In this document: piece by piece, positions 6,221-41,326 of the stretch | Position numbering within the stretch: position 1 is the first letter of the stretch | Layout of the letters: the number at the start of each line of letters is the position of its first letter | Source: Candidatus Segetimicrobium genomatis | GTDB taxonomy: Bacteria > Sysuimicrobiota > Sysuimicrobiia > Sysuimicrobiales > Kaftiobacteriaceae | Length of the DNA stretch: 43,906 nucleotides | Direction: 5' to 3' | NCBI GenBank assembly: GCA_005882295.1 | Contig: VBAI01000183.1 | Span: forward strand, 1 to 43,906 | Program-made: the position numbers and the translations under genes | The notes under the pieces: model-generated | What the model was told of the DNA's origin: nothing | Database searches by the model: none | Seen by the model: the letters and a program-made list of their open reading frames with translations, nothing else

Positions 6221-6304
6221 GTCCATTGCGTCAATTAGGTCCATTGCGTCTAGTGCGTCCCAGAGCAGCAGTAGACGCAAGAGACGCAACAGACGCAATT
6301 AGAC
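6221..6304 (+). repeat. Inverted repeat with 9-nt periodic arms (TTGCGTCTN / NAGACGCAA)
   Basis: Left GTCCATTGCGTCAATTAGGTCCATTGCGTCTAGTGCGTC; right GTAGACGCAAGAGACGCAACAGACGCAATTAGACGCGACAGACG. Confidence 0.85.
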
Positions 6305-6330
6305 GCGACAGACGATGTGGAGGGAATGCG

Positions 6331-7557
6331 ATGGCGACCACCATCTCGCCAGCGGGCGTGGAGATGATTGCGGGCGGTGTGACCTCCCCCAAGGGCTTCC
6401 GTGCGGCTGGCGTGCACTGCGGCGTGAAGGCGGCCAAGAGAGATCTGGCCCTGGTCGCCGCCGACCGCTTGTCCTCCGCGGCGGGACTGTTTACGACAAA
6501 CGCCGTCAAGGCGGCGCCTGTCCTGGTCAGCCAGGAGAAAATCCAATCCGGGGTCGCACAGGCGATCGTCATCAACAGCGGGAACGCCAACGCGTGCACG
6601 GGGGCGCAGGGGCTCGGCGACGCGCGGGATATGGCGGCGCTGGTCGCCTGTCAGCTCGGGGTTGCCGAGGAATTTGTTTTGGTGGCCAGCACAGGAGTAA
6701 TCGGATCTCCGCTGCCGATGGCCGCGATTCGCGCCGGGATTCCTCGTGCGGTTCAGGCGCTGGGGCCGGAGGGAGGGGCGGATGCGGCCAACGCCATTCT
6801 TACCACCGATGCCTACCCGAAGATGGCGGCGGCGCAGCTGGAGGTCGGGGGTGTGCTGGTGACCATCGGCGGCATGGCCAAGGGCGCAGGCATGATTCAC
6901 CCGAACATGGCCACCACGCTGTGCGTCCTGACCACGGACGCGGCGATCCCAGGACCCCAGCTGCGGGAGGCGCTGCGGAAGGCGGTGGACGCATCGTTCA
7001 ACTGCATCTCTGTCGACGGCGACACCAGCACCAACGACACCGTGTTCTGTCTGGCCAATGGCATGTGCGGCAACGCCCCGCTGGTGGACCATGATCGCGC
7101 GTTCGACCAGTTTTCTGGCGCGCTGGCCGGGGTGGCCACGGCCCTGGCCAAGATGGTGGTGCGCGACGGGGAAGGGGCGTCAAGGGTGGCCACCCTGATC
7201 GTGCGCGGAGCGCGCTCCAGCGAGGAGGCGAAGCGAGTGGCCACCGCGGTGATGACATCGCCGCTGGTGAAGACCGCGCTGGGCGGAGGCGAGCCTAACT
7301 GGGGTCGCGTGATGGCCGCGGTGGGGCGGTCGGGCGCCGGCGTACATCCGGAGAGGATCGACATGTGGATCGGCGGCGTGCCGGTCGTCCGCAACGGCAT
7401 CGCCGCGTCGCCCGATCTCGCGGCGGCTGCCGCCGCCATGCGCGGAGCAGAGGTGGAGATGCAGCTGGATCTGCACCTCGGCAGCGGGACGTTTACGGGG
7501 TGGTTTTCGGATTTGACCGAAGCGTATGTCAAGGTAAATGCGGGCTACCTGACATGA
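6331..7557 (+). CDS. argJ: Bifunctional glutamate N-acetyltransferase / amino-acid acetyltransferase ArgJ
   Basis: KGAGMIHPNMATTLCVLTTDA self-cleavage motif; ATG 6331 with GGAGGG upstream, preferred over ORF-track start 6226 which lies in the repeat. Confidence 0.96.
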   Translation: MATTISPAGVEMIAGGVTSPKGFRAAGVHCGVKAAKRDLALVAADRLSSAAGLFTTNAVKAAPVLVSQEKIQSGVAQAIVINSGNANACTGAQGLGDARDMAALVACQLGVAEEFVLVASTGVIGSPLPMAAIRAGIPRAVQALGPEGGADAANAILTTDAYPKMAAAQLEVGGVLVTIGGMAKGAGMIHPNMATTLCVLTTDAAIPGPQLREALRKAVDASFNCISVDGDTSTNDTVFCLANGMCGNAPLVDHDRAFDQFSGALAGVATALAKMVVRDGEGASRVATLIVRGARSSEEAKRVATAVMTSPLVKTALGGGEPNWGRVMAAVGRSGAGVHPERIDMWIGGVPVVRNGIAASPDLAAAAAAMRGAEVEMQLDLHLGSGTFTGWFSDLTEAYVKVNAGYLT

Positions 7558-7599
7558 GGGCAGTGACGGGATCCCCCACGCCGGCTCGGGGCGGAGCGC

Positions 7600-7628
7600 G
7601 GCAACGGGGGAACGCGGGAACGCGAACC
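7600..7628 (+). repeat. Single periodic arm (GGGAACGC-type 8-nt units)
   Basis: GCAACGGGGGAACGCGGGAACGCGAACC between argJ and argB; no obvious complementary arm nearby. Confidence 0.55.
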
Positions 7629-7642
7629 TGAGGCACAGGACC

Positions 7643-8518
7643 ATGGCGGTCGAGACTCGTGCGGCAATCGATCTGGGCGCGTCCCTCGCGCAGGCGCTGC
7701 GCTACGTGAATGCGTGGAAATCCAAGACCGTGGTGGTCAAATACGGCGGCAGCGTGATGACGTCCGGGGTGGGCCGGGCCGATGGGGACACCGTGATCGA
7801 CGACCTGGTGCTCCTCAAGGGCGCGGGCGTGGACCCCGTGCTCGTCCATGGAGGCGGCCCCGAGATCACGCGCATGCTGGAGCGCCTGGGCAAGGCCAGC
7901 AGGTTCATCGACGGGCTCCGGGTCACCGACGAGGAGACGATGGAGGTCGTGGAGATGGTGCTGGCCGGGCGCACCAACAAGCAGCTGGTTTCGTTGATCA
8001 CGGCGGCGGGGGGCGCCGCGGTGGGTATCAGCGGGAAAGACGGCAAGGTGTTTGTGGCCCGTAAGCTGGACGGGCCCGAAGATCTGGGGCAGGTGGGCGA
8101 GGTCGAATCGGTTGATACGACGGTGGTGAGACTCCTCTCGACCCATGGCTTCGTCCCGGTCATTGCCTCCATCGGTATCGGACAGGACGGGGAGAGCTTG
8201 AATCTCAACGCCGATCATGCCGCCGGGGCCCTGGCCGCGGCACTGGGCGCCAGCAAGTTTATTCTGCTCACAGATGTCCCGGGTATCCTCCCAGGTGCGG
8301 TCGGTGGGCAGCCCATTTCCACGCTGCGCGCGGAGGAGGCCAGGCACCTCATCAACGACGGGGTGGTCTCGCAGGGGATGATTCCGAAGGTGGAGGCCTG
8401 TCTGGCGGCGCTGGCGTCGGGTGTCCCCACCGCGCACATCGTCGGCGGCCGCGAGCCGCATGCCCTCCTCGTAGAGCTGTTCACGGAAGAGGGCGTGGGG
8501 ACGATGATCACTCCGTAA
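7643..8518 (+). CDS. argB: Acetylglutamate kinase
   Basis: KTVVVKYGGSVM, VLVHGGGPEITRMLERLG, LNLNADHAAGALAAALGA motifs. Confidence 0.96.
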   Translation: MAVETRAAIDLGASLAQALRYVNAWKSKTVVVKYGGSVMTSGVGRADGDTVIDDLVLLKGAGVDPVLVHGGGPEITRMLERLGKASRFIDGLRVTDEETMEVVEMVLAGRTNKQLVSLITAAGGAAVGISGKDGKVFVARKLDGPEDLGQVGEVESVDTTVVRLLSTHGFVPVIASIGIGQDGESLNLNADHAAGALAAALGASKFILLTDVPGILPGAVGGQPISTLRAEEARHLINDGVVSQGMIPKVEACLAALASGVPTAHIVGGREPHALLVELFTEEGVGTMITP

Positions 8519-8521
8519 AAT

Positions 8522-8640
8522 GCGTCTACTTGGTCTACTTAGTCTACCTGGTCTACTTGGTCTGCAAGATTAACCCTGACTGAGCCGCGCAGTGGCAGGC
8601 AGACGAGGTAGACCAAGAAGACCAAGTAGACTAAGTAGAC
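8522..8640 (+). repeat. Inverted repeat with 9-nt periodic arms (GTCTACTTG / CAAGTAGAC), 42-nt arms
   Basis: Left 8523-8564 GTCTACTTG GTCTACTTA GTCTACCTG GTCTACTTG GTCTGC pairs with 8599-8640 at 36/42 Watson-Crick positions when aligned by eye. Confidence 0.92.
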
Positions 8641-8667
8641 ATCAGTCTGTAGCTCCGAAGGGAGTAT

Positions 8668-9891
8668 GTGATGGATTCGCAGAGTGTCACTGAGATGAGT
8701 GAGCGGTACTTGATGCGGACGTACCGCCGGGCGCCTATCGCGTTCGCCTCGGGGCAGGGGGCGCGGCTGGTGGACCTGGAAGGAAAGACCTACCTCGATT
8801 TCGTCGCCGGCATCGCCGTGACCGTCCTGGGACACAACCACCCCGCGGTGACCGCCGCGATCCGGGGGCAGGCCGCGCGCCTGCTGCACGTCAGCAACCT
8901 CTACCAGATTCCGCAGCAGGCTGAGCTGGCCTGGTGGCTCGTGGACCACACCGGACTGGCCCGCGCGTTTTTCTGCAACAGCGGGGCAGAGGCGAACGAG
9001 GCGGCAATCAAGCTGGCGCGAAAGTGGGGGAGGACCCGCGGCGACGGACGCTTTCAGATTATCGTCGCCGAGCATTCCTTCCATGGACGCACCCTGGGAT
9101 CGCTTGCGGCGACCGCCCAGCCAGCGTATCAGCGAGGATTTGAACCTCTTCCCGCGGGTTTCGTTGCCGTGCCGTTCAACGACCTGGGCGCCTTGCAGGA
9201 TGCCGTCACACCGGATGTCTGCGCGGTGATGCTGGAACCGGTGCAGGGTGAGGGGGGGATCCACGTGGCGTCGGCGGAGTACCTCCGGGGCGTCCGGCGG
9301 GTGTGCACGGACCGTGACCTCCTCCTCATCGTCGACGAGGTGCAGACGGGCATCGGCCGCACAGGCCGGCTGTTTGCGTACGAGCATTTTGGCGTTCTGC
9401 CGGACATCCTCACACTGGCAAAGGGTCTCGGCGGGGGCGTGCCCATTGGCGCGATGCTGGCCGGGGGCGACGCCGCTGAGGTGTTTGTCCCTGGCGATCA
9501 TGGGTCGACATTCGGAGGAAACCCGCTGGCGTGTGCCGCCGCGCTGGCGGTCCTGACCACGATCGAATCGGACGGCCTGGTGCAACGCGCGGCCACGGTC
9601 GGCGCCTACCTACTCGAACGGCTGCGTGCTCTGGCCGCCCGGCATTCGGTGATTGTGAACGTACGCGGGCTGGGGCTGATGGTCGCCGCTGAACTCTCCA
9701 TCGAGGCGGCGCCGGTGGTCGACGCCTGCCGGGCGCGCGGTCTCCTGGTGAACGCGGTCAAGCCCAACACCCTCCGCCTGGTGCCGCCGCTGATTATTAC
9801 GCCGGCCGACGTGGATGAGGCGGTGGAGATCCTCGATGCTGCGCTGGCAGCGGTGACGCAACCAACAGAAGCAACGGTGATTCGTGATTAG
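8668..9891 (+). CDS. argD: Acetylornithine/succinyldiaminopimelate-type aminotransferase
   Basis: Class III PLP aminotransferase: FCNSGAEANEAAIKLARKW, LIVDEVQTGIGRTG, LTLAKGLGGGVPIGAM; position in arg cluster. Start GTG 8668 or ATG 8671. Confidence 0.94.
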   Translation: MMDSQSVTEMSERYLMRTYRRAPIAFASGQGARLVDLEGKTYLDFVAGIAVTVLGHNHPAVTAAIRGQAARLLHVSNLYQIPQQAELAWWLVDHTGLARAFFCNSGAEANEAAIKLARKWGRTRGDGRFQIIVAEHSFHGRTLGSLAATAQPAYQRGFEPLPAGFVAVPFNDLGALQDAVTPDVCAVMLEPVQGEGGIHVASAEYLRGVRRVCTDRDLLLIVDEVQTGIGRTGRLFAYEHFGVLPDILTLAKGLGGGVPIGAMLAGGDAAEVFVPGDHGSTFGGNPLACAAALAVLTTIESDGLVQRAATVGAYLLERLRALAARHSVIVNVRGLGLMVAAELSIEAAPVVDACRARGLLVNAVKPNTLRLVPPLIITPADVDEAVEILDAALAAVTQPTEATVIRD

Positions 9892-9959
9892 TGATTCGTG
9901 ATTCGCCTTTTCTTTGTCTGGCGCAGTTGCGAGTCACGAATCACGAGTCACTAATCACG
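9877..9959 (+). repeat. Inverted repeat with 7-nt periodic arms (GTGATTC / GAATCAC); left arm includes the argD stop codon
   Basis: GTGATTC GTGATTA GTGATTC GTGATTC G versus GAGTCACGAATCACGAGTCACTAATCAC. Confidence 0.9.
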
Positions 9960-9978
9960 TAGTCAAGGAGGAATTCGC

Positions 9979-11214
9979 ATGTCGGCTCCGCGCAAGGTCA
10001 TCCTCGCCTACTCCGGTGGCCTGGACACCTCGGTCATCATCCCGTGGCTGAAGGAGACATACGGCTCTGCGGTGATCGCTGTGATCGCGGACGTGGGACA
10101 GCCCGAAGACTTTGACGCCCTACGCCGCAAGGCCCTGGCCAGCGGCGCGGATGCCGCGCAGGTGGTGGATGCCAAAGCGGAGTTTGCCACCGAGTACCTC
10201 TTTCCAGCGCTGCGGGCCGACGCGGTGTACGAGGGGCAGTATCTCCTCGGCACGGCGCTGGCGCGGCCGCTCATTGCCAGAGTCCAGGTTGAGGTCGCGC
10301 TGGCGGAACGCGCGGACGCCCTCGCGCATGGATGTACCGGCAAGGGGAATGATCAGGTGCGCTTCGAACTTGCCTATCAGGCGCTGGCCCCGCACCTGCG
10401 AGTCATCGCTCCGTGGCGCGAGTGGTCGCTGCGATCTCGCGAAGACGAAATCGAGTACGCGGCGGCGCACGGGATTCCAGTCCCGGCGACCAGAGAGAAG
10501 CCATACAGCGTCGACCAGAATCTCTGGCATCGCAGCGCCGAAGCCGGCGTGCTGGAAGATCCGTGGCAGGAGCCACCGCAGGATGTCTACGCGCTGACAC
10601 GGTCTCCGGGCGCGGCTCCGGACGACCCTGCCTATGTCGAGATCGCGTTCGAGCGCGGCGTACCCACGGCCCTCGATGGGACCGCCACCAATCCCGTGAC
10701 GCTCATTCAGACTCTCAACCGGCTCGGCGGGCAGCATGGGGTGGGGCGGGTGGACATGGTCGAGAATCGCCTGGTGGGGATCAAGGTGCGCGGCGTGTAT
10801 GAAACACCCGGCGGCACCATTCTTGCCCTAGCGCATCGCGATCTGGAATCGATCACCATCGACCGGGACACGCAGCATTACGTGGCGCTGATCGCGCCGC
10901 GCTACGCTGAGCTGGTGTACAACGGGTTGTGGTTCTCTCCGCTGCGGCATGCGTTCGACGCCTTCGTCGATGCCGCTCAGCACACCGTGACGGGCACCGT
11001 GCGGGTCAAACTGTTCAAGGGCACCTGCACGGTGGTGGGGCGCACGTCCCCGCATGCGCTCTACCGGCAGGACCTGGCCACCTTCGGCGAAGATGCCGTC
11101 TATGATCAGCAGGATGCCGGTGGGTTCATCCACCTCTGGGGACTGCCGACACGGGTATTCGCGCAGATGAACCCGCAGCAGATTCGCCGCGGCCTCAGGC
11201 ATCCTGTGAAGTAG
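9979..11214 (+). CDS. argG: Argininosuccinate synthase
   Basis: KVILAYSGGLDTSVIIPWLKE; HGCTGKGNDQVRFE; AAGGAGG upstream. Confidence 0.97.
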   Translation: MSAPRKVILAYSGGLDTSVIIPWLKETYGSAVIAVIADVGQPEDFDALRRKALASGADAAQVVDAKAEFATEYLFPALRADAVYEGQYLLGTALARPLIARVQVEVALAERADALAHGCTGKGNDQVRFELAYQALAPHLRVIAPWREWSLRSREDEIEYAAAHGIPVPATREKPYSVDQNLWHRSAEAGVLEDPWQEPPQDVYALTRSPGAAPDDPAYVEIAFERGVPTALDGTATNPVTLIQTLNRLGGQHGVGRVDMVENRLVGIKVRGVYETPGGTILALAHRDLESITIDRDTQHYVALIAPRYAELVYNGLWFSPLRHAFDAFVDAAQHTVTGTVRVKLFKGTCTVVGRTSPHALYRQDLATFGEDAVYDQQDAGGFIHLWGLPTRVFAQMNPQQIRRGLRHPVK

Positions 11215-11233
11215 GCCACCCCAATCTCAGCCG

Positions 11234-12691
11234 ATGCCCGGCGCGGACACGCCGCATAGGATGTGGGGCGGCCGATTCCGGCAGGCGCCTGACGCCGGCC
11301 TGCTGGAGTTTATCTCGTCCTTCGCCACGGATCACCGGCTCCTGCGCTGGGACATCGTCGCCAGCATCGCACACGTGCAGATGCTTGGCGCCGCCGGGAT
11401 CATTCCGGCCTCTGATGCCGCGGCCATCGCCGACGGACTGCGCGGCATCCTGGCCGACACCCGTGCCGGCCGTGTACGCGTCGAGGGACCCTACGAAGAC
11501 GTGCATTCGTTCATCGAAGCGATCCTGTACCAGCGCATCGGGCCGGTCGCGGGCCGGATGCACACCGCTCGGAGCCGGAACGACCAGGTGGCGACGGCCT
11601 TTCGCCTCTACGTAAAAGAAGCCATCATCCGCCTGGTCACCCACACGGTCGATCTCATGGACGAGACGGTCCGCCGGGCTGCGGGCGCCGTGGAGATCAT
11701 CCTGCCCGGCTTTACCCACCTGCAGCATGCGCAGCCGGTCAGGTTAGCCCACCATCTGCTGGCCTACGTCTGGATGCTCAACCGCGATGTCGACCGCCTG
11801 ATGGACTGCTACCGGCGGAGCAACGTCTTGCCGCTGGGGTCGGGCGCCGTGGCCGGAGTCTCGTATCCGGTCGATCGGCAGCGCGTGGCCGCCGCGCTGG
11901 GGTTTGCGCGGATCAGCGAGAACAGCATCGACGCGACCGGCGACCGCGATTTCGCCGTCGAAGTTGTCGCCGGCGCGGCGCTGCTGATGGTGCACCTCTC
12001 ACGCTGGAGCGAGGAACTGGTCCTGTGGGCCAGCGACGAATTCGGGTTCATCGCTCTGGCGGACGCCGTGACCACCGGGAGCAGCCTGATGCCCCAGAAG
12101 AAGAATCCGGATCCTGTGGAACTCATCCGCGGCCGCGCCGGGCGCGCGATCGGCGCGGTGGCCGCGTTGCTGACGACACTGAAGGGACTGCCGGCCGGGT
12201 ACCAGCGGGACCTGCAGGAGGACAAGGAGATCGTCTTCGACTCGCTGGATCTCGTCACGGCGGCCGTACGCGCGATGCAGAGGTTTCTCACCGGCGTCGA
12301 GTTCTCGGCCACACGGATGGAGGACGCGACCCGCCGCGGCCTGCTGACCGCCACCGAGGTCGCCGACTACCTGGCCCGCAAAGGGATGCCGTTCCGCGAG
12401 GCACACCAGGCCGCCGGGCGCGTCGTGCAGGAAGCGCTGGCCCGCGGGATGCCGCTGTGGGAGTTGCCCCTGGAGGTGTACGCAGGCATCACACCGCTGT
12501 TTGAGCGCGACATCCTGGAGGCCGTCCAACTCGCCGCCGCAGTGGAATCCAAGCGCGCGCCCGGAGGGACGGCCAAGGCGGCCGTGGAAGGCCAGCTCGA
12601 TAGCGCGCGGCTGCAACTGGAGACGCTGCGGGCGTGGGTGCGAGACGCCGACGGCCGGATGGCGGACGTTGCGGCGCTGGCAGAACGATGA
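11234..12691 (+). CDS. argH: Argininosuccinate lyase
   Basis: MWGGRFRQ, HTARSRNDQVATAFRL, GSSLMPQKKNPDPVELIRG signature. Confidence 0.97.
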   Translation: MPGADTPHRMWGGRFRQAPDAGLLEFISSFATDHRLLRWDIVASIAHVQMLGAAGIIPASDAAAIADGLRGILADTRAGRVRVEGPYEDVHSFIEAILYQRIGPVAGRMHTARSRNDQVATAFRLYVKEAIIRLVTHTVDLMDETVRRAAGAVEIILPGFTHLQHAQPVRLAHHLLAYVWMLNRDVDRLMDCYRRSNVLPLGSGAVAGVSYPVDRQRVAAALGFARISENSIDATGDRDFAVEVVAGAALLMVHLSRWSEELVLWASDEFGFIALADAVTTGSSLMPQKKNPDPVELIRGRAGRAIGAVAALLTTLKGLPAGYQRDLQEDKEIVFDSLDLVTAAVRAMQRFLTGVEFSATRMEDATRRGLLTATEVADYLARKGMPFREAHQAAGRVVQEALARGMPLWELPLEVYAGITPLFERDILEAVQLAAAVESKRAPGGTAKAAVEGQLDSARLQLETLRAWVRDADGRMADVAALAER

Positions 12692-13164: not shown

Positions 13165-13186
13165 GGCGTCCTCCACGGCCATCGTC

Positions 13187-13216
13187 GTTTCCCGCTCCTG
13201 CTTCCCGTTTCCCGCC
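13187..13216 (+). repeat. Single periodic arm GTTTCCCGCTCCTGCTTCCCGTTTCCCGCC
   Basis: Resembles the right arm of the element at 35758-35835 (GTTTCCCGTTTCCCGCTTCCG); no obvious partner arm nearby. Confidence 0.55.
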
Positions 13217-15332: not shown

Positions 15333-15339
15333 CTGCCCG

Positions 15340-15834
15340 ATGCAGGTGTCGGTGGCCCTTTATGTGCGCCGGCCAGGGATCACCGTCCCGCGGCTGCGGC
15401 ACGTCGTTAGGCATGTGCTCCGACGGCAGCGGTGCGCTCCCGACACCGAGGTGGCGCTCGCCCTAGTGTCCGATGCGACCGTCCGGAGACTCAACCGACA
15501 GTTTCTTGGTATCGACCGGCCCACCGATGTCCTGTCTTTTCCGGCGACCCGTGCGCGCGCCCGCGTGGTCAGGAGACGGATCCAGGATCCTGGATCCAAG
15601 ATCCTGGATCGAGAGGTGCGGGGCTATCTGGGCGACGTGGTGATCTCCGTGGATCGCGCCCGCGTGCAGGCCCGCGCCGTCGGCCATCCCCTGCGCACGG
15701 AGATCGCGCTGCTGGCAGTGCACGGGCTCCTGCACCTGCTGGGTTACGACGACCGGCGGCGGACAGACGCCGTCCACATGAGCCGTCGGCAACGCGTCCT
15801 GGCGGCAGAGGCCGGGTTCGAGGTGGCAGGATGA
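15340..15834 (+). CDS. ybeY: Endoribonuclease/rRNA maturation factor YbeY
   Basis: RRLNRQFLGIDRPTDVLSFP ... LGDVVISVDRAR ... VHGLLHLLGYDD; ATG 15340. Confidence 0.92.
   Translation: MQVSVALYVRRPGITVPRLRHVVRHVLRRQRCAPDTEVALALVSDATVRRLNRQFLGIDRPTDVLSFPATRARARVVRRRIQDPGSKILDREVRGYLGDVVISVDRARVQARAVGHPLRTEIALLAVHGLLHLLGYDDRRRTDAVHMSRRQRVLAAEAGFEVAG
15578..15612 (+). repeat. In-frame palindromic repeat inside ybeY (GGATCCAGGATCCTGGATCC plus AAGATCCTGGATCGAG)
   Basis: 15578-15597 is a perfect 20-bp palindrome, followed by a further half-copy; encodes RIQDPGSKILDRE. Confidence 0.88.
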
Positions 15835-17612: not shown

Positions 17613-18632
17613 GGAATAGGGTCGGATATCTTGCGGACCAGGTCTCCGTTCTGGCGGGATGCCCGCGCGCTGGCCGTCCTCGCGCAAGTCCTCGTGGTCG
17701 TCATCGTGGCCCTCGCCCTGGCGGGGGCCATGGCCACGTTACGGCGAAGCTTTATCCGCCAGAACATCCACCTGGATTGGAGCGTGCTGCGCCAGCCGGC
17801 GGGATTCGATCTCAGCGCGCTGCAGTGGACGGTGGACCTTGATACCCTGCGCATCAAGCGGTACGAGCCCACCGACAGCAACGCCGAGGCGATCATCGCC
17901 GGCCTGATCAACACCATTCAGGTCGCGGTCATGGGAATCGTCCTGGCGACACTCCTCGGCGTGGTGGCCGGCGTGGCCAGGCTCTCGCAGAACTGGCTTG
18001 TCGGCAGGATGGCGCTGGGCTACGTCGAGGCGCTCCGCAACACCCCGCTGCTCGTGCAACTGTTCTTCTGGTATTTCGGCATCTTTCTGCAGCTGCCGGA
18101 TGGATCGTCCAGCCACCCGCCGTTGCGACTGCTGGGGAGCCTGGTGACCCTCACCAACTCCGGCCTCGCGGTCGGTGGGACGCGTGTTGAGCGCTTCGGG
18201 CGCCTGGTGGCCGAGGGCGGGTACCAGCTGACCCCGGAGCTGGCCGCGCTCGTGATCGGGCTGGCCGTCTACACCTCCGCCTTCATTGCGGAGATCGTGC
18301 GTGGGGGGATCCAGACGGTGTCCCGCGGGCAGATGGAAGCTGCGCGCAGCCTGGGTCTCACGTATCGGCAGGGGCTAAGGCTCATTGTGCTGCCACAGGC
18401 GTTTCGCATCATCATCCCCCCATTGGGCAACCAGTTTCTCAACCTGACCAAGAACAGCAGCCTGGCGCTGGGGATTGGCTACGCTGAGCTGCTGACGGCG
18501 GCCAACACCGTGAGCAGCCAGTCGTTCCGCTCGCTGGAGGCGTTCACCGTCGTCACCGTCGCCTACTTGATGGTATCGCTCGTGATTTCCGCTGGGCTGA
18601 ACCTGATCCGCCGGCGCCTGGCCACATCGTGA
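17607..18632 (+). CDS. aapQ: Amino-acid ABC transporter permease (AapQ-like)
   Basis: HisM-type permease: MALGYVEALRNTPLLVQLFFWYFGIF...EIVRGGIQTVSRGQMEAARSLGLTYRQGLRLIVLPQAFRIIIPPLGNQFLNLTKNSSLALGIGY. Confidence 0.9.
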   Translation: MRGIGSDILRTRSPFWRDARALAVLAQVLVVVIVALALAGAMATLRRSFIRQNIHLDWSVLRQPAGFDLSALQWTVDLDTLRIKRYEPTDSNAEAIIAGLINTIQVAVMGIVLATLLGVVAGVARLSQNWLVGRMALGYVEALRNTPLLVQLFFWYFGIFLQLPDGSSSHPPLRLLGSLVTLTNSGLAVGGTRVERFGRLVAEGGYQLTPELAALVIGLAVYTSAFIAEIVRGGIQTVSRGQMEAARSLGLTYRQGLRLIVLPQAFRIIIPPLGNQFLNLTKNSSLALGIGYAELLTAANTVSSQSFRSLEAFTVVTVAYLMVSLVISAGLNLIRRRLATS

Positions 18633-19792: not shown

Positions 19793-20587
19793 GTGAACGA
19801 GACACCCGTGAGTGCGGGCGCCAACGCGACAACGCGCCAACGCGACAACGGCCCAATCATTTTGCTGGAGGATGTCCATAAGTGGTTCGGCAAGCTGCAC
19901 GTCCTGCGCGGGATCACCGTAAAGGTCTGGCCGGGGGAGGTGGTGGTCGTCGCCGGGCCATCGGGATCGGGGAAGTCCACGATGATCCGATGCATCAACC
20001 GGCTGGAGAGTCACCAACGCGGCCGCATCGTCGTGGACGGGATCGAGCTCACCGACGACGTGCACAACATTGATGCGGTGCGCAGCGAAGTCGGGATGGT
20101 GTTCCAGTCGTTCAACCTGTTCCCTCACCTCACCGCCCTGCAGAATGTCAGCCTGGCGCCGGTGAAAGTCCGGAAATGGCCGAAGCACAAAGCGGAACGC
20201 GTGGCGGTCGAGTTGCTGGATCGCGTCGGCATCCCCGAGAAGGCGCACATCTACCCGGCGCAACTCTCCGGAGGCCAGCAGCAGCGCGTGGCCATCGCGC
20301 GGGCCCTGGCGATGCAGCCCAAGATCATGCTGTTCGACGAGCCCACCTCGGCCCTGGATCCGGAGATGATCCAGGAAGTCCTGGACGTGATGCGGGGGCT
20401 GGCCCGCGATACCGGGATGACGATGATCGTGGTGACCCATGAGATGGGTTTTGCCCGCGAGGTTGCCGACCGCATTCTCTTCATGGATGAGGGAGTGATT
20501 GTCGAGGAAGGCGCACCGGAGCATTTCTTCACCAACCCGACCCATCCCAGAACACAACAATTCCTCTCGAAGATTCTGCACCAATAG
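19793..20587 (+). CDS. aapP: Amino-acid ABC transporter ATP-binding protein (AapP/GlnQ-like)
   Basis: Walker [10 protein letters not shown], signature [35 protein letters not shown]. Confidence 0.95.
19819..19850 (+). repeat. Perfect 16-bp tandem duplication inside aapP 5' end
   Basis: CGCCAACGCGACAACG twice without mismatch, encoding part of [10 protein letters not shown]. Confidence 0.9.
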
Positions 20588-20589: not shown

Positions 20590-20677
20590 ACAATTGTGAA
20601 TTGTCGATTGAAAATTGTGGATTGAACGACCCGTAGTTTCAATTCGCAATCCCACAATCTACATTCCGACAATTCCG
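20590..20677 (+). repeat. Inverted repeat with ~7-nt periodic arms (ATTGTGG / CCACAAT type)
   Basis: GTGAATTGTCGATTGAAAATTGTGGATTGAA versus TTCAATTCGCAATCCCACAATCTACATTCCGACAATTC, with small indels. Confidence 0.8.
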
Positions 20678-20733: not shown

Positions 20734-22017
20734 TTGCAAGCCCCTAGCAATCCGTACGGCTGGCTCATCCTGGTGCTGCTGTTGCTGCTGTCGGCCTTCT
20801 TCTCGGCCGCGGAGGCCGCCCTGCTGGCCGCGAACAAGCTTCGCCTGCGGCGGCTCCGCGACGACGGGGATCGTCGCGCCCGCCAGCTTAGCCGCCTGCT
20901 CGAGGAGCAACCTGGGCGCGTCCTGACCGCCCTGGCGGTCGGCAACAACATCGTGAACGTGGGCGCCTCGATCCTGGCGGCGGCGCTGTTTGTGCAGTGG
21001 CTGGGTCCCGGCCGGGGCCCCTGGCTGGCGGTGGTGGCGATGACGGTGGCCCTGCTGATTGTGGGTGAGATCACCCCCAAGACGTTTGCCGCCAAGCACG
21101 CCGACCGGCTCGCGCTCTGGGTGGGCCGCCCGGTGGCCTGGGTCGCGGTCCTGCTTTCGCCCGCAATCCGCGTGCTGTCGCTGGTCAGCGACCTGCTGGT
21201 GCGGCCGCTGGGCGGGCGCGTAAACTTCGCCTCGCCGCTGGTTACCGAAGAGGAAATCCGGCTGCTGGTGCGCGTGGGGGAAGAAGAGGGAGTCATCGAG
21301 GCCGATCAGCGGCAGATGATTCACTCCATCTTCGAGTTCGGGGACACCGTCGTCCGGGAGGTGATGGTCCCGCGCATCGACATGGTGTGCGTCGAGGACG
21401 CGACCTCGGTGGACGGCGTGCTGCGCGTTATTTTGGAAGAGGGACACTCACGCGTTCCGGTGTACCACGACACGATCGACCAGATTGTGGGGGTGGTGCA
21501 CGTCAAGGATCTGCTCAGCCATATCAAGGCCGGTCATCACTCCCTCCCGGCGCGGGAGGTGATGCGGCCGGCCTACTTTGTGCCGGAGAGCAAACGGCTG
21601 GATGATCTGTTCCGGGAGATGCGGCGCAAGCGGACGCAGATGGCCATCGTCGTGGACGAGTACGGCGGCACGGCCGGCCTCGTCACCGTGGAGGACCTCC
21701 TGGAGGAGATTGTCGGTCCGATCCTGGACGAGTACGACGTCGAGGAGAAGTTGTTTGAAACGGTCGACGAGCACACGGCGATCGTGGACGGACGGTTGAG
21801 TATCGAAGAGGTCAACGAGCTGATGAATCTGGACCTGCCCACCGGCGAGGTGGATACGATCGGCGGGTTTGTCTACTCGCTGCTCGGCCACGTGCCGGCA
21901 CAGGGGGAAAAGGTCATCTCCGGCGGCGCGGAGATCGTGGTGGAAAAGCTGGAGGGGCATCGGATCGCCAGGGTGCGCATCAGCCGCCTCGTCCCGGCGC
22001 CCCCGCTGCGCTCCTGA
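20734..22017 (+). CDS. CNNM/CorC (HlyC)-family membrane protein with CBS pair and CorC_HlyC domain
   Basis: ILVLLLLLSAFFSAAEAALLAANKLRLRRL ... GVIEADQRQMIHSIFEFGDTVVREVMVPRIDM ... VVDEYGGTAGLVTVEDLLEEIVGPILDEYD; exact start codon uncertain. Confidence 0.92.
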   Translation: MQAPSNPYGWLILVLLLLLSAFFSAAEAALLAANKLRLRRLRDDGDRRARQLSRLLEEQPGRVLTALAVGNNIVNVGASILAAALFVQWLGPGRGPWLAVVAMTVALLIVGEITPKTFAAKHADRLALWVGRPVAWVAVLLSPAIRVLSLVSDLLVRPLGGRVNFASPLVTEEEIRLLVRVGEEEGVIEADQRQMIHSIFEFGDTVVREVMVPRIDMVCVEDATSVDGVLRVILEEGHSRVPVYHDTIDQIVGVVHVKDLLSHIKAGHHSLPAREVMRPAYFVPESKRLDDLFREMRRKRTQMAIVVDEYGGTAGLVTVEDLLEEIVGPILDEYDVEEKLFETVDEHTAIVDGRLSIEEVNELMNLDLPTGEVDTIGGFVYSLLGHVPAQGEKVISGGAEIVVEKLEGHRIARVRISRLVPAPPLRS

Positions 22018-23108: not shown

Positions 23109-24040
23109 GCGAGGCGAAAGATCGCATTCCTGCGTTCCCCAGTTCCCCCGTTCCCGGCTTTCGTTCAGGCTTCGCCGTCCTGATCGGTCGCCCCGGGGTG
23201 GGCAAGTCCACGCTGCTCAACCGACTGGTCGGTCAGAAAGTGGCCATCACCGCGGCAGTCCCGCAGATTACGCGGACCCGCCTCTCAGGAATCCTGACGC
23301 TGCCCTACACCCAGATCGTGTTCGTGGATACCCCCGGCCTGCATCGGCCCCGGCACAGACTGGGCGAGTGGATGGTCGAGCAGAGTGTGCGGGCGCTCCG
23401 GGACGCCGACGTGGTGCTGCTCGTTCTTGATGCCGGTGATGGCGTGACACCTGAGGACCGGGCCGCGATCGCCCGCCTCGGCGGCGTACGCGCTCCCGCG
23501 CTGGCGGTGCTGAACAAGATCGACCGGCTCCCGCCCGGCGAGATGGTGGCGCGTTTGGCCGCGGTCGGCGGGCTGCACGCGTTCGCCGGCGTGGTTCCCG
23601 TCTCGGGTCTCACGGGGGCCAACCTCGATGGGCTGGTCCAGGCGATCGCCGGGCTGTTGCCGGAAGGCCCGCAGTACTTCCCCCCGGAGATGGTGACCGA
23701 CCAGCCCGAGCAGGCCCTGGTCCGGGAACTGATCAGGGAGGCCGCCATCAAGTCGACCCGTGAGGAACTGCCCTATGGTATCGCGGTGGAGATCGAGGAG
23801 TTCACGAGGCGCGAGGGCAAGGATCTCCTCTACATCCGGGCCACCCTCCACGTGGAGCGCGACGCGCACAAGAAGATGCTGATCGGGAAGGACGGCCGGA
23901 TGCTGCGGGCCATCGGGCAGCGGGCACGTGGGGACATCGAGACCCTGCTGCACTCCCGCATCTACCTGGACCTCTGGGTCAAGACGTCGAAAGGGTGGCG
24001 AGAACGGGAAGAACTCATTAAGACGTTCTATCCTGAGTGA
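23105..24040 (+). CDS. era: GTPase Era
   Basis: GFAVLIGRPGVGKSTLLNRLVGQKVAITAAVPQITRTRLSGI; C-terminal KH domain HKKMLIGKDGRMLRAIGQRARGDIETLLHSRIYLDLWVK. Confidence 0.95.
   Translation: MSEAKDRIPAFPSSPVPGFRSGFAVLIGRPGVGKSTLLNRLVGQKVAITAAVPQITRTRLSGILTLPYTQIVFVDTPGLHRPRHRLGEWMVEQSVRALRDADVVLLVLDAGDGVTPEDRAAIARLGGVRAPALAVLNKIDRLPPGEMVARLAAVGGLHAFAGVVPVSGLTGANLDGLVQAIAGLLPEGPQYFPPEMVTDQPEQALVRELIREAAIKSTREELPYGIAVEIEEFTRREGKDLLYIRATLHVERDAHKKMLIGKDGRMLRAIGQRARGDIETLLHSRIYLDLWVKTSKGWREREELIKTFYPE
23127..23156 (+). repeat. Periodic arm within era 5' coding region (GTTCCCC/GTTCCCG units)
   Basis: TTCCTGCGTTCCCCAGTTCCCCCGTTCCCGGC encodes IPAFPSSPVPGF; weak complementary arm GCGGCAACGCGAACCCGCG at the cdd 3' end (about 23077-23095). 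Confidence 0.55.
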
Positions 24041-26684: not shown

Positions 26685-27506
26685 ATGCCGGTCTACAAGG
26701 CCGAGGGAATTGTCATCCGCCGCGCCAATCTAGGCGAGGCGGACCGCCTGGTGACTCTGTTCTGTCTTGACCACGGCAAAGTGACGGTGGCGGCCCGAGG
26801 GGCCCGCAAGATGAAGAGCCGGTTTGTGGGCCGGCTGGAACTCTTCTCACACGTGCGCGCCTTGCTGGCTGTCGGCCGGACGCTCGATGTGGTGTCTCAG
26901 GTGGAAGTGGCCGCCACGTTCTCGATGCTGCGGCAGAATCTGGACCGGCTCGGGTACGCGGCGTTTGCCGTTGAGCTCGTCGACCGTTCCACCGCCGACC
27001 GCGAACCGGCTCCCGACCTCTTCAGGAGCCTGCGTGCGGCGCTGGATCTGATGCAGACCGGCGACCCTCAAGTCATCGGATTGTGGTTTGCGGCGCAGGT
27101 GCTGGTGCACAGCGGCTACGCGCCGACGACCGACGCCTGTCAGGTGTGCGGGAAGCCCGTCCGCAACGGGGCGGCCTTCAGCCACGCGCTCGGCGGAGTG
27201 CTGTGCGAGGCCGACCGGCCGCGGGATCCCGATGCGGTGATGGCGTCTGCGGGCGCGCTGCGGGCGATCGGGTACCTCCTGCACAGCCAGCCTGAGGTGC
27301 TTGCCCGACTGGTCCTGGACCCGCGGCAACGGGCCGAGGTGAGCGGACTCCTGCAGCGATATCTCGAGTACCGGCTGGAGACCAAGTTGAAGAGCCTGCA
27401 GGTCATCAGGAAAATCACGGGAATGCGGGAACAGGGGAACGCGGGAACGCGGAAAATCAACTCAGGACACCTATCGCATCGTGGAGGAGTGGGAGGAACA
27501 GGGTAG
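26685..27506 (+). CDS. recO: DNA repair protein RecO
   Basis: KAEGIVIRRANLGEADRLVTLFCLDHGKVTVAARGARKMKSRFVGRLELFSHV; last ~30 codons come from repeat sequence. Confidence 0.92.
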   Translation: MPVYKAEGIVIRRANLGEADRLVTLFCLDHGKVTVAARGARKMKSRFVGRLELFSHVRALLAVGRTLDVVSQVEVAATFSMLRQNLDRLGYAAFAVELVDRSTADREPAPDLFRSLRAALDLMQTGDPQVIGLWFAAQVLVHSGYAPTTDACQVCGKPVRNGAAFSHALGGVLCEADRPRDPDAVMASAGALRAIGYLLHSQPEVLARLVLDPRQRAEVSGLLQRYLEYRLETKLKSLQVIRKITGMREQGNAGTRKINSGHLSHRGGVGGTG

Positions 27507-27547
27507 GAGCACGTTCACTTGCGTTCCCGTGTTCCCGCGTTCCTGTG
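27419..27547 (+). repeat. Inverted repeat with ~8-nt periodic arms (GGGAACGC / GCGTTCCC), left arm inside recO
   Basis: GGGAATGCGGGAACAGGGGAACGCGGGAACGCGG (27419-27452) versus GTTCACTTGCGTTCCCGTGTTCCCGCGTTCCTGTG (27513-27547). Confidence 0.85.
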
Positions 27548-27575
27548 TGTTATAGTGTAGAAGGCGGAGGTGACT

Positions 27576-27837: not shown

Positions 27838-27928
27838 GTTGAAACGTTGGAAAGTTGAATCGTTGAAGCGAAGAGGACGATTTCAATCATACTCCGGTTC
27901 AACGCTCCAACGCTTCAACGTTCCAACG
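27838..27928 (+). repeat. Inverted repeat with 8-nt periodic arms (GTTGAAAC / CGTTCCAA type)
   Basis: GTTGAAAC GTTGGAAA GTTGAATC GTTGAAGC G versus TTCAACGC TCCAACGC TTCAACGT TCCAACG. Confidence 0.9.
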
Positions 27929-27953
27929 TAGTTTTTGCGACAATGATGGAAGA

Positions 27954-33904: not shown

Positions 33905-34014
33905 GCGTCTACTTGGTCTGCCTGGTCTTCTTGGTCTACTTGGTCTCCTTGCTCCACACCACGCGGGGTTTGCAGACCAAGTAGACTAAGTAGACCGAGG
34001 AGACTAAGGAGACG
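33905..34014 (+). repeat. Inverted repeat with 9-nt periodic arms (GTCTACTTG / CAAGTAGAC)
   Basis: GCGTCTACTTGGTCTGCCTGGTCTTCTTGGTCTACTTGGTCTCCTTGC versus GCAGACCAAGTAGACTAAGTAGACCGAGGAGACTAAGGAGACGG; same word as 8522-8640. Confidence 0.92.
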
Positions 34015-35757: not shown

Positions 35758-35835
35758 GAACGGAAACGGGAAACAGGTAACGGGAAACAGGGCCAGGCGA
35801 CTGAAAGCGGTTGTTTCCCGTTTCCCGCTTCCGTC
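35758..35835 (+). repeat. Inverted repeat with 7-nt periodic arms (GGGAAAC / GTTTCCC)
   Basis: GAACGGAAACGGGAAACAGGTAACGGGAAACAGG versus GTTGTTTCCCGTTTCCCGCTTCCGTC. Confidence 0.9.
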
Positions 35836-35849
35836 AGTTGGGGTGTGGG

Positions 35850-36506
35850 GTGCCAGACGTGCCAGAACAGGGGGGATCGCCGACCGAGGCCGCTGAAGCC
35901 GTGCTGCGCAAGTTGCGCGGCGTGAAAGCGGTGCGGGTGGAGACAGACGACGCCGGGGCGATCCGTCTTGTCCACGTCCTGGGGGGTCCGGACCGCAGTC
36001 CCAAGGTGATTGCCGTGGACGTCGTCTCCGCCCTGGCGGCTGAACTCGGCGTGCAACTGGAGCCGCGGCAGGTGCGGGTCGCCGCGCAGCAGCGCACCGA
36101 GGAGAGCGCCCCCCCGGAGCAGGCGCGCTTGAAGTTTGTTGGGTTGAGCGTCTCCGCCCTCCGCAACGCCGCAGAGGTCAAAGTACAACTGGAGGACGAG
36201 GGGCTGATGTACGAAGGCATCAGCAGCGGCCCCAATGCCACCCGCAACCGCCTGGAACTTGTCGCCGAAGCCACCCTGCGCGCGCTCGAAATCTATCTGC
36301 GGGCCAGCGGTCTCTTCCTGCTTGACGGGGTGATGCTCTCGAGGATTGGGGGCCACGAAGTGGTCGTCGCCGTGGTATCACTGGCCGGCCGCGAGGAGGA
36401 GATACTTGCTGGATCATCCCTCGTGCGTGACGATCCTCGCGGAGCGGTCGTGCGCGCCATCCTCGATGCTACGAATCGGACCGTGTCCTCGCTGCTCGGA
36501 CGCTGA
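35850..36506 (+). CDS. Hypothetical protein, possibly two-domain, unknown function
   Basis: ORF in codon-usage-consistent frame between hpf and secA; probable start GTG 35850. Confidence 0.75.
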   Translation: MPDVPEQGGSPTEAAEAVLRKLRGVKAVRVETDDAGAIRLVHVLGGPDRSPKVIAVDVVSALAAELGVQLEPRQVRVAAQQRTEESAPPEQARLKFVGLSVSALRNAAEVKVQLEDEGLMYEGISSGPNATRNRLELVAEATLRALEIYLRASGLFLLDGVMLSRIGGHEVVVAVVSLAGREEEILAGSSLVRDDPRGAVVRAILDATNRTVSSLLGR

Positions 36507-36507
36507 A

Positions 36508-36542
36508 CGACCTCTTCAACTTTTCAACTCCGGACGAGGTCG
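36508..36542 (+). repeat. Stem-loop CGACCTC...GAGGTCG with TTCAACTTTTCAAC in the loop
   Basis: 7-bp perfect stem immediately after the upstream stop codon and before the secA -10 box. Confidence 0.5.
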
Positions 36543-36554
36543 CTCGCATCAAGA

Positions 36555-36563
36555 TGCTATAAT
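36555..36563 (+). promoter_or_regulatory. Extended -10 promoter TGCTATAAT for secA
   Basis: TGN-TATAAT; ends 9 nt before ATG 36573; no Shine-Dalgarno. Confidence 0.7.
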
Positions 36564-36572
36564 AACTCCGCT

Positions 36573-39248
36573 ATGAGTAGCATTTTGGCGCGGCTGCTGG
36601 GCGATTCCACGGCGCGCGAACTTCAGCGGATCCAGCCACTCCTCCAGATGGCCAACGCGCTGGAGGCGGAGATTTCCGCGCTCTCCGACCAGGCGCTTGC
36701 CGGAAAGACCACCGAGTTCAAGGAGCGGCTCAGCGCGGGGGAGACGCTCGACGATCTCCTCCCCGAGGCGTTCGCGGTGGTGCGCGAGGCGTCGCGGCGC
36801 ACGCTCGGGCAGCGTCACTTCGACGTGCAGTTGCTCGGGGGCATGGTGCTGCACCAGGGCAAGATCGCCGAGATGCGGACCGGGGAGGGGAAAACGCTGG
36901 TCGCCACGCTGCCGGTGTATCTCAACGCCCTGGCCGGCCGCGGGGTCCACCTGGTGACCGTGAACGACTACCTGGCCCGCCGCGACGCGGGCTGGATGGG
37001 GCCCATCTACCACGCTCTGGGGTTGTCTGTGGCAGCCATTGCGCACGAGTTCAGCGGGCTGTACGATCCCGGCTACGCCGATCCGCAAGCGCACGCCGAT
37101 GACCGCCTGAACCACTTCCGGCCGGTGACCCGCCGGGAGGCGTATCAGGCCGATGTCACCTACGGGACGGTGAGCGAGTTCGGGTTCGACTACCTGCGCG
37201 ACAACATGGCGCTGCGGCCCGAGGACCTGGGCCAGCGCGAGCTGGGATACGCCATCGTCGATGAGGTCGATTTCATTCTCATTGATGAGGCACGGACGCC
37301 GCTGATCATCTCCGGCATGGTGGAGGGGTCAACCAAGAAGTACTACGACTTTGCCAGACTGGTCGAGCGCCTGGTCGCTTCCCGCGATTACACCGTGGAC
37401 GAGAAACTCAAGACGGCAACGCTGACCGAGGAGGGGATGACACGCGCCGAGCGAGCGCTGGGTGTCGAGAATCTGGCCGACATCGAGCACGTGGATTTCA
37501 TGCATCACCTCCAGCAGGCGCTGCGGGCGCACGCCTGCTACAAGAAAGATGTAGATTACGTGGTCAAGGACGGCCAGGTGATCATCGTGGACGAGTTCAC
37601 CGGACGGCTCATGCTGGGCCGCCGGTACTCCGACGGGCTGCATCAGGCCATTGAGGCGAAGGAGAACGTCCGTATCGAGCGTGAGAGCCAGACCCTGGCC
37701 TCCATCACCATTCAGAACTACTTCCGCATGTATGCCAAGCTGGCCGGGATGACCGGCACGGCCAAGACAGAGGAAGAAGAGCTCCAGAAAATATACAATC
37801 TCCCCGTCGTGGTCATCCCCACGCACAAGCCGATGATCCGCCAGGACGCGCCCGACCTCATCTACAAAACCGAACGGGCCAAGTTCCGCGCGGTGGTGAC
37901 GGAGATTGAGGAGTGGCACAGACGCGGCCGGCCGGTGCTGGTGGGGACGCGGAGCATCGAAAAGAACGAGCAGCTGAGCGAGATGCTCCGCCGGCGCGGC
38001 GTGCCCCACGAGATCCTCAACGCCAAGCAGCACGAACGCGAGGCGGAGATCATCGCCCAGGCTGGCCGGCTTGGCGCGGTGACGATCGCGACGAACATGG
38101 CCGGGCGGGGCGTGGACATCCTCCTGGGAGGCAACCCGCCGGATCAGGCGGAGGGGGACAAGGTCCGCGCGCTCGGTGGGCTGCATGTCATCGGCACTGA
38201 GCGCCATGAAGCCCGCCGGATCGACAACCAGCTCCGCGGTCGTACCGGCCGGCAGGGCGACTCCGGGTCCTCCCGCTTCTATGTGGGCCTGGACGACGAG
38301 CTGATGCGGCTGTTTGCCGGCCAGCGCGTGGCGGCGATCATGGACCGGCTGGGCATCGACGAGGACACGCCGATCGAGCACGGGCTGGTGACCAGGCAGA
38401 TCGAGAACGCTCAAAAGAAAGTCGAACAATATCACTTCGACGTCCGCAAGCATGTGCTGGAATACGACGACGTCCTCAACGTGCAGCGCAAGGTCATCTA
38501 CGGAGAGCGGCGCAAGGCCCTGTTCGGCGACAACGTACGCGAGAACGTGCTGGACATGTTCGAACGGCTGCTGGGGACCCTGGTGGATGCCCACTGTCCC
38601 GCCGATGCCCGGCCCGAGGAGTGGGATCTGGAGGGGTTGCGGGAGTTCGCGGCGAGGTTGATTCCGGCGCTGGCCGACGTCCCGGTCGCAGAGGATGCCA
38701 GCCGCGAGGACGTCAAGGAGAGGCTGGAGTCCGCGGCGCTGGGAGCGTACGAACGCAAAGAGCAGGAGATCGGCGTAGAACAACTCCGCGAGGTAGAACG
38801 GCTGGTGCTCCTGCAGACCATCGACCGGAAGTGGATCGACCACCTGTATGCCATGGAGGCGTTGCGTGAAGGGATTGGGTTGCGCGCCTATGCCCAGGTC
38901 AGCCCGCTGATCGAGTACCAGCGGGAGGGGTATGACCTGTTCCAGCAAATGCTGACCGAGATTCAGGAGGAGACGGTGCAGGTGCTCCTCCGGCTCCAGG
39001 TAGAACCCGGCGCCTCGCTGGCCCCGCGCCCTGTACCATCTGGTACAGGGCCGCGCCGGCCGGCCGTGATGCCGGGAGCACGCCCTGCCCGCGAGCCGGC
39101 CGCAGTCGCCAGCGCGGCGGGCGGCGGGACGCCACGGCACGCCGCGACAATCGACCCGGCTGCGGACCGGCGGAAGATCGGTCGCAACGACCCGTGCTGG
39201 TGCGGCAGCGGGAAGAAGTACAAGAAGTGCCACGGCAAGGACGAATAA
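36573..39248 (+). CDS. secA: Preprotein translocase subunit SecA
   Basis: [41 protein letters not shown]-terminal SEC-C motif [21 protein letters not shown]. Confidence 0.97.
39029..39050 (+). repeat. In-frame palindrome inside secA C-terminal linker
   Basis: CCCTGTACCATCTGGTACAGGG: perfect 9-bp stem, 4-nt loop; same unit as in ppdK. Confidence 0.85.
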
Positions 39249-41326
39249 TCGAGTCTCCCCGGTCTACCCAGTCTTCCCTGTCTATCGACTCGATTGAATT
39301 TAGACTGGGAAGACTGGGGAGACTGGGGAGACTGGGAAGACCCGCCCTCGCGATTCTCACCGGTTTCTTTTTGATCCTGAGTTTCCCGCCGTTTGATGTT
39401 GGTTGGCTGGCCTGGGTTGCCCTCACACCACTCGTCCTGGCGATTCACGGGCGCCCGATGCGCCAGGTGTTCGGGCTCGGCTATCTGGCCGGGGGCCTGG
39501 CATTCGCGGGTATTCTGGCGTGGATCCGCGTCTTTGGGCTGCTGCCCTGGGTGCTGCTGGCGGCGTACCTCGCCCTGTATCCGGCGGCGTTCGCGGTTGT
39601 CACCCGCTGGGCTGTGGGCGGCCGCCAGACATGGAGGTGGGTCTGGCTGGCCGCCATCGCCTGGACGGGTCTGGAGTACCTGCGATCCGCTGGAGTTCTT
39701 GGATTCCCCTGGGCGCTCTTGGGCCTGACGCAGCATCGGTCTCTCCCAGTATTGCAGGTGGCCCGGTACGCGGGCGTGTACGGCGTGTCGTTTCTGGTGG
39801 CTCTGGCCGGCGTATCGCTGGCAGGCGTGGGGCTGATCAGGCGTCCGGCTCCGATCATATTCCCAGTCCTTGCGCTCATGCTGGCCATCGGGTGGGGCAT
39901 CCGGCAGGTTCACACCGTGCGCGAAGGCCCGGTTGTAATGGCGGCCGTCCAACCGCACGTTCCGCAGGCGCAGAAGTTCGATCCGGCGCTGGCAGCCGAT
40001 CACATGCGCGCGCTGCAGCGGCTTGTGGGAGACGGTGGCCGGCGTGGCGCTGATCTGATCGTCTTGCCGGAGACCGCCCTCCCGCTGAACCTCTTCGGCC
40101 CGGGCGGGGCGCTCGTCGAGGTGGGACGGTGGGCCCACCAGGCACGCGCCACCATCATTGCCAGCAGTCTGGAGAACGGCGCGTCCAACATCGCCGTCGC
40201 GGTGGCACCGTCGGGGACGGCGGTCAGCCGGTACGACAAGGTCCGGCTCGTCGCGTTCGGGGAGACGGGGATTCTGCCCGGCACGAGGTACGAACCGCTG
40301 TGGACTCCGGTGGGGCGGGTGGGTGTGGCGATCTGTTTTGAGTCGATCTTCCCCGATGTGACCCGTGAGCTCGTCCGAAATGGAGCACAGGTGCTCGCCG
40401 TGATGACGAACGATGCGTGGTTTGACGGGACCGCTGGACCCGCGCAACATGCGGTGCACGCGGTGCTGCGCGCGGTGGAGTCAGGGCGCTGGGTCGTCCG
40501 TGCCGCCAACACCGGGCTGTCGATGGTGATCGACCCGGCCGGCCGGGTGCGGGTGACCCTCTCGCCGCGTCAATCCGGCGTACTCATCTCACGCGCCGGA
40601 CTCGTGGATGCGCCGACATTCTACGCCAGCCGGGGTGACGTGCTTGTGGGGGCAGGTCTCGTGGCGCTCCTGGTTGCGGCCGCGCCGGACCTGAGGCGAG
40701 CGCTGGCGCACCACTGGAGGCGGCCGGCCTTTCAGTCTGTCCTCAGCGCCGTAGGGCTCCCGTGGTTTGCGGCGATGATCCTGCTGCGCGCGCGGGCGCC
40801 GTGGTGGGGGCTGCCCGCGGTCCTCTCCGGATTTCTCGGCGCTGCGATGTTGTTTCAACCAGCGCGGGGTCTGGGCCCGCACATGAGAGGACACCGTCCC
40901 CGCGGGCATGGCGCCCCGATACTCTCTGCGCTGGTGGGTGGATCCGTCGCAGTGGTCGCTCTGTGGAGTCTGACGGTAGCCGCCTTCCGCGCGTCGGGCA
41001 TGATGCTGCCCGCTCTGCCACTTCCCGGTGGGTGGCTGGTTGTCGGCGCGCGCCAGCTGTTCGCGGCCGCCGCGATCGAGTTCTGGCTTCGCGGGAGCGC
41101 ATTTGCGCATCTTCTAGAATGGCAGGGGCCCGGTGCCGCCGTCGCCATCACCACAATGCTGGGAATGTCGCTGCAGGCCGGATTGCCACCGGAAGCCTAT
41201 GCGTGGGCGATTGTCACCGGCGCCGCGTTCGGTCTGATCCGCGGAAGAACCGGAGACTACGCAGGGCTCGTGATCCCCCATGCGATCGGCAATATCCTCT
41301 TCTCGGCCATCGCCGCAGTGCGCTAG
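39194..41326 (+). CDS. lnt: Apolipoprotein N-acyltransferase with C-terminal CPBP (CAAX/Abi)-like membrane region; 5' boundary uncertain
   Basis: Lnt catalytic segments [14 protein letters not shown] (Glu), [11 protein letters not shown] (Lys), [11 protein letters not shown] (Cys); C-terminal EFWLRG ... IPHAIGN resembles CPBP motifs. Core begins around [18 protein letters not shown]. Confidence 0.88.
39250..39343 (+). repeat. Inverted repeat with 9-nt periodic arms (AGTCTCCCC / AGACTGGGG)
   Basis: GAGTCTCCCCGGTCTACCCAGTCTTCCCTGTCTATCG versus TTAGACTGGGAAGACTGGGGAGACTGGGGAGACTGGGAAGACCC. Confidence 0.9.

Follow-up and report, generated by a model that had tools for sequence, protein, structure and literature searches.

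Hairpins of tandem 7- to 9-nt words at bacterial gene junctions are likely ORF-less members of intergenic IVS-like element families

For decades, no function has been assigned to S23 or IVP proteins (PF05635, 23S_rRNA_IVP), which are four-helix-bundle proteins, or to the intervening sequences (IVSs) of rRNA; the intergenic heptamer repeats of Xanthomonas, Nostoc and other bacteria, also long known, have had no explained origin. The IVS in the 23S rRNA of Coxiella burnetii, called a selfish element of unknown function, carries an S23 open reading frame (ORF) and a 28-bp stem with tandem heptamers, GACAGAT (PMC4990558). The heptamers GGGAATC (Xanthomonas) and GGGGA(C/T)T (Nostoc) are intergenic, mostly come in four units and have fixed and free positions; each Xanthomonas genome has 70-75 GGGAATC pairs in convergent (inverted) arrangement, with few between divergent genes, and the authors, who described the repeats as G-quadruplex formers, saw no mobile-element link (PMC4692102). 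In Beggiatoaceae, intergenic TAACTGA heptamers occur in two to six copies, as direct repeats just upstream of start codons and almost never inverted (PMC4679880). Here we analyze inverted repeats at gene junctions of a 43,906-nt stretch of Candidatus Segetimicrobium genomatis (the window; contig 176 of the 317 contigs of a 2.86-Mb draft genome, labeled G000), whose arms each consist of about four tandem words of 7, 8 or 9 nt. We consider it likely that these hairpins are short copies without an ORF that belong to intergenic, IVS-like families of selfish elements, with a separate IVP for each family of words.

An ungapped inverted-repeat scan of the window returned 10 repeats, 8 of which have periodic arms of about four words (starting at 6225, 8524, 9883, 27416, 27844, 33906, 35760 and 39252). 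The original prediction had named nine junctions with this two-arm layout, and all nine were confirmed, eight by the independent scan and the ninth, at 20590, as a weaker case with 7-nt words. All of the window elements sit between protein genes and outside the 23S rRNA gene, and Rfam gave no match across the window. Counts beyond the window cover about one third of the draft genome, and gene calls for the large samples come from our own simple codon model rather than a published caller. In 353 kb of G000, mostly contigs chosen for matches to GTCTACTTG, 80 of 93 strong inverted repeats were periodic, as were 9 of 12 in 167 kb chosen independently of that word; dinucleotide shuffles yielded none, indicating that the elements are non-random. 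A 934-kb sample (18 kb masked as N) contained 140 periodic elements among 167 strong inverted repeats. Much of this large sample was selected for containing GTCTACTTG, and density is better taken from the unbiased part, which holds about 5 elements per 100 kb; the sister species G001 and G002, congeneric with G000, hold 12 and 22 per 100 kb, respectively. Some related genomes of the window's taxonomic family lack such elements entirely. An exact scan with GTCTACTTGGTCTACTTRGTCTAC matched two records, one of which, Terrabacteria group bacterium ANGP1 of the phylum Sysuimicrobiota (Candidatus Segetimicrobium), bears such an element. A Paenibacillus match to the GTCTACTTG word looks like a coding repeat without an inverted partner and was set aside.

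The arms measure 28, 33 and 41 nt for periods of 7, 8 and 9, respectively (about 4 to 4.7 words per arm), indicating that the number of words, not the length of the arm, is constant. The periods and word number first read from the window were borne out both there and in the 140-element sample. Likewise, a common layout rather than one sequence was found, although the words do not differ from locus to locus as had been supposed; instead, they sort into multi-copy families, about a dozen in all, in which some word positions are fixed and others free. The GTCTNCYTR family comprises 44 elements in the one-third genome sample, and conservation along this commonest word is G100 T100 C99 T98 N C98 Y T92 R. 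At its free N position the arms match 85 times vs 81 expected, and Y is the sole position with some excess of arm-to-arm matching. In the GGGACT[R] family of G000, agreement between partner words at the free seventh position falls below chance (9 matches vs 19.8 expected), as though a regular mismatch were being maintained. Free positions thus barely covary between arms, so it is the word itself that is conserved, rather than the pairing. An inverted partner is present for about 90% of intergenic word arrays. Different families have outer ends in common, with AACTGC or AACTAC before the first arm and the complement after the second; GTAG is seen solely outside the 3′ arm, where it is one among several variants of the end, and the commonest family also has a common inner end, ATGC/GCAT. 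Within a family the arms are alike but the loops are unrelated, with no similarity between copies beyond leftover words.

At G000:C37, the loop of an element with GTCTACTTG arms spans about 455 nt and contains a PF05635 gene. IVP searches gave matches in 8 of 21 genomes, all within the window's taxonomic family, and 19 of the 21 IVP copies scoring at least 71 bits are flanked by inverted arms whose word is particular to the IVP lineage. The exceptions are G000:C289, which has a right arm only, of AGAACGC-like words, and G001:C66, which has a weak pair of 9-nt arms. The IVP arms of G000 read GTCTACTTG at C37, GGGACTG at C94 and GTCTTCCCA at C297, all of which are also words of dispersed short elements. 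The short window elements lack the IVP ORF that is present in the matching full-length elements at these three loci, and the two forms have words, outer AACTGC ends and inner ATGC ends in common. As a control, only 1 of 175 ordinary G000 genes (90-200 amino acids) has a comparable spanning repeat, itself made of GTCTACTTG arms.

The arrangement extends beyond the window's phylum. Periodic inverted arms flank 14 of 23 plasmid IVP loci, in four other phyla (plasmid hosts: Nostoc, Anabaena, Calothrix, Geminocystis, Pseudanabaena, Leptolyngbya, Oscillatoria, Tolypothrix, Riemerella, Gemmatirosa and Azospirillum), and the same layout surrounds 8 of 10 distinct IVP loci on viral contigs; INPHARED phages gave no IVP match with one query. 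On a plasmid of Nostoc sp. C052 (L281), short hairpins (18015-18104 and 20916-20987) and a nearby IVP gene share the word GCAGAGGA, indicating that short copies accompany IVPs in cyanobacteria too. Recurrence of one layout around PF05635 genes in several phyla points to dispersed selfish element families. On other plasmids, IVP genes are embedded in CRISPR-Cas operons, with either cas6 and cas4 or cas10 and a cmr3-like gene on the two sides (L247, L253 and L250, from Anabaena sp. 90, Pseudanabaena galeata and Picosynechococcus PCC 7003), and on pNsp_b of Nostoc sp. ATCC 53789 (L246) the IVP gene is annotated as two pieces, with GGGAAAG-type short repeats beside or in the gene.

Protein lineage and word go together. 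Word period changes 6 times on the IVP tree, compared with 11.0 times in shuffles (0 of 200 as low), and a Mantel test over 38 loci gave r 0.286, a value that none of 2000 permutations reached. One clade (support 98/90) unites the five [GA]TCT nine-mers, which come from two genera, and another unites a GTTGGA pair from two genera (100/99); GGGACTG groups with GGGATAG (95/85) and GGGAAAA with GGGAACA (100/96). The IVP is probably a pentamer, consistent with the five chains in each of the solved family members, 2gsc and 2rld.

Comparison of orthologous junctions in the three congeneric genomes revealed both replacement and retention of word families. The family is often replaced, as at argC/argJ, argB/argD, the ABC-CNNM junction and after the S30AE gene; the same family is kept after secA, upstream of glyQ and at recO. 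The secA-lnt junction is without an element in other genera, and no obvious target-site duplication is seen there, empty sites being known from other genera only. Words also shift between species: the share of GTCTNC words that continue with YTR is 78% for G000, 0% for G001 and 13% for G002 (small samples of 19 and 38 words in the sister genomes, respectively), and GTGATTC in G000 stands against GTGACTG in G001, whose IVP arms read GTGACTG.

We propose that the full-length form consists of about four tandem 7-9-nt words, a PF05635 gene and an inverted array of the same words. The IVP, probably as a pentamer, would bind the element's tandem words, as DNA or as RNA, perhaps with one word per subunit, and could act in trans in the upkeep or spread of the short copies, as RAYT is thought to do for REPINs. 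Insertion just behind stop codons may be tolerated, which would produce the gene-end distribution described below. Several points weigh against this proposal. PF05635 is not known to have catalytic activity. No partner enzyme was identified when RAYT surroundings and RVT_1 were examined; a reverse transcriptase partner, as in diversity-generating retroelements, was rejected, RVT_1 being not found in 5 of 6 genomes with short elements. Clear paired arms are missing from 9 of the 23 plasmid IVP loci, and some word families, GGGAACGC above all, had no IVP in the sampled genomes. A divergent PF05635-like clade is without word arms; L243, L242 and L236 (G000:C174, G001:C46 and G002:C2) occupy an orthologous locus, L222 and L228 are related, and the clade is perhaps a domesticated IVP. 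In addition, several IVP loci are orthologous across species and even genera (G000 C37 with G002 C252; the GTTGGA loci of G001 and G005), so part of the match between word and protein reflects descent at one place, and the full-length form seems to move rarely.

Terminators, local slippage and RAYT-mobilized repeats explain the data less well than ORF-less IVS-like elements do. The elements might be host terminators or stabilizers of mRNA 3′ ends, with the gene-end hairpin selected and the tandem words a by-product of hairpin origin. The siting at gene ends that the original prediction described is clear and agrees with this idea: 134 of the 140 periodic elements are intergenic despite 87% coding sequence, elements are present in 13 of 20 intergenic regions between convergent genes, 102 of 275 between co-directional genes and 6 of 58 between divergent genes, and they lie at a median of 5 nt past the stop codon. 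The RNA folds are also very stable (z −5 to −8.5 for five window elements), and a hairpin is kept at orthologous junctions while its word family changes. However, a U-tract accompanies just 6 of 112 co-directional elements, which speaks against canonical intrinsic termination, as had been expected from the window. Nor does the sense strand show a clear excess of G-U over A-C (154 vs 130), as selection on sense-strand RNA would leave; the free word positions do not covary, and those of GGGACT[R] match below chance. The earlier suggestion of selection on hairpins is therefore upheld for position at gene ends but not for pairing. Moreover, related genomes of the same family do without the elements altogether, and tolerated insertion predicts gene-end position equally well. 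We regard a host origin of this kind as unlikely, although some copies may serve as terminators or 3′-end stabilizers as a second role.

Local generation, by slippage and hairpin-templated correction or by templated inversion, had been proposed originally, and would make the IVP genes later cargo that landed in such hairpins. It accounts for a common layout without one sequence, for the geneless state of most hairpins and for the armless IVP clade. It does not readily accommodate the presence of a single degenerate word, its fixed and free positions unchanged, at dozens of unlinked sites, a tightly limited word number, arms that are not exact mutual copies at free positions, and copies with arms, outer ends and inner ends, but not loops, in common; nor does it predict that, in five phyla, the layout recurs at PF05635 genes and the word tracks protein lineage. 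We consider this origin very unlikely.

Least probable, in our view, is that these are REP or REPIN elements (REP, repetitive extragenic palindromic) mobilized by RAYT (Y1) transposases: their size, inverted layout and gene-end position are REPIN-like (PMC3733652, PMC3116915), and within the family all six genomes that have short elements, and none of the four that lack them, carry PF01797 genes, but these closely related genera are non-independent points, G011 has RAYT genes and 0 elements in 40 kb, the words are carried by IVP genes rather than RAYTs, and the suggestive co-occurrence comes with no physical link between RAYT genes and words. No word elements flank the RAYT-like Y1 genes of these genomes (L195-L213); instead, short classic palindromes (GGTGCCAGGCACC, GGGGACAGTCCCC and GGTACCTGGTACC), unrelated to the words, lie at or near several of them.

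In the window itself, the genes are ordinary and include an arginine cluster, recO, glyQS, PPDK and secA; element coordinates are given here without strand. Within the arginine cluster, an element of 9-nt words, ATTGCGTCN, lies between argC and argJ (6220-6314), where the sister species have AGAACGC words, and a probable half element, a single arm of GGGAACGC words, lies between argJ and argB (7593-7624). The argB/argD element (8524-8640) consists of 9-nt GTCTACTTG words around a 33-nt loop and has the lowest fold score, z −8.5; at the same junction, G001 carries GTCTACNNN words and G002 carries GTGATTC. The argD/argG element (9877-9959), with 7-nt GTGATTC words, begins at the argD stop codon. 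The weak element between an ABC ATPase gene and a CNNM/CorC gene (20592-20675) has 7-nt ATTGTGN words, replaced by 8-nt GACCAAGG words in both sister species. Two elements have 8-nt words: one at the end of recO (27416-27548; GGGAACGC, arms 78 nt apart) and one upstream of glyQ (27838-27931; GTTGRANC), whose family is the same in both sister species, with one arm partly deleted in G001. The element between the PPDK and HD genes (33906-34014) again has 9-nt GTCTACTTG words, with GTCTNCNNN in the sister species; the one after the S30AE gene (35760-35834) has 7-nt GGGAAAC words, with 8-nt GCGGTCAG words in the sister species. Finally, the junction of secA with the adjacent lnt holds an element of 9-nt AGTCTNCCC words (39252-39341), of the same family in both sister species. 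The five RNA-folded elements are those at argB/argD, argD/argG, glyQ, PPDK and secA. Further short tandem arrays at 13186-13214, 15578-15610, 19818-19850 and 23134-23155 (CGTTTCC, GGATCCA, GCGACAAC and GTTCCCCA) are possibly decayed elements or single arms. Upstream of secA (36506-36572), CTCTTCAACTTTTCAACTC immediately precedes a TATAAT box and looks like the remnant of a GTTGGA element that is complete at the same place in G001.

Our data tie together protein lineage, word and hairpin layout, and thereby join IVSs and heptamer repeats. A brief search, lacking most subscription journals and preprints, found no literature linking PF05635 to intergenic word hairpins. A broader proposal, for which we judge the case evenly balanced, is that these are bacterial selfish elements of a class of their own: a small four-helix-bundle protein, probably pentameric and not known to be catalytic, would read tandem 7-, 8- or 9-nt words by lineage-specific recognition and sustain word hairpins in many phyla, with rRNA intervening sequences and heptamer repeats as special cases. 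If this is true, the elements would be a widespread kind with many protein-word pairs, several per genome, offering a directly testable recognition code, and many genes annotated as 'four helix bundle protein', together with unexplained intergenic repeats, would gain a place.

Among known systems, the Foldback elements of Drosophila, with inverted arms of short tandem repeats around an unrelated middle, offer an architectural analogy only, being eukaryotic and of kilobase scale. As in miniature inverted-repeat transposable elements (MITEs), short copies have ends in common with a longer gene-bearing form; unlike in MITEs, loops are unrelated between copies, and neither a target duplication nor a transposase is shown here. 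The elements resemble intrinsic terminators in lying behind stop codons but have a stem without a U-tract, and they resemble Beggiatoaceae TAACTGA in the intergenic heptamers but are inverted and at gene ends. Like REP and REPIN elements with their RAYTs, they are short, multi-copy, inverted gene-end elements that a protein gene with a constant inherited location apparently serves (PMC3116915, PMC3733652); in contrast, their arms are tandem words rather than a 20-40-nt palindrome tagged GTAG or CGTC, the partner is an IVP without a Y1 domain, and there are many families per genome. The 7-nt families share about four units, intergenic position and partly inverted pairing with the bacterial heptamer repeats, whose description (one word per genome studied in Xanthomonas and Nostoc, no IVP connection made) is extended by the 8- and 9-nt families. 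As in the 23S rRNA IVS, the full-length elements hold a PF05635/S23-type ORF between complementary stem-forming ends, and in the window elements complementary ends form a stem of short tandem repeats; the differences are that the elements here are intergenic rather than in rRNA, have periods of 7, 8 and 9, and comprise many families per genome with large numbers of ORF-less short copies.

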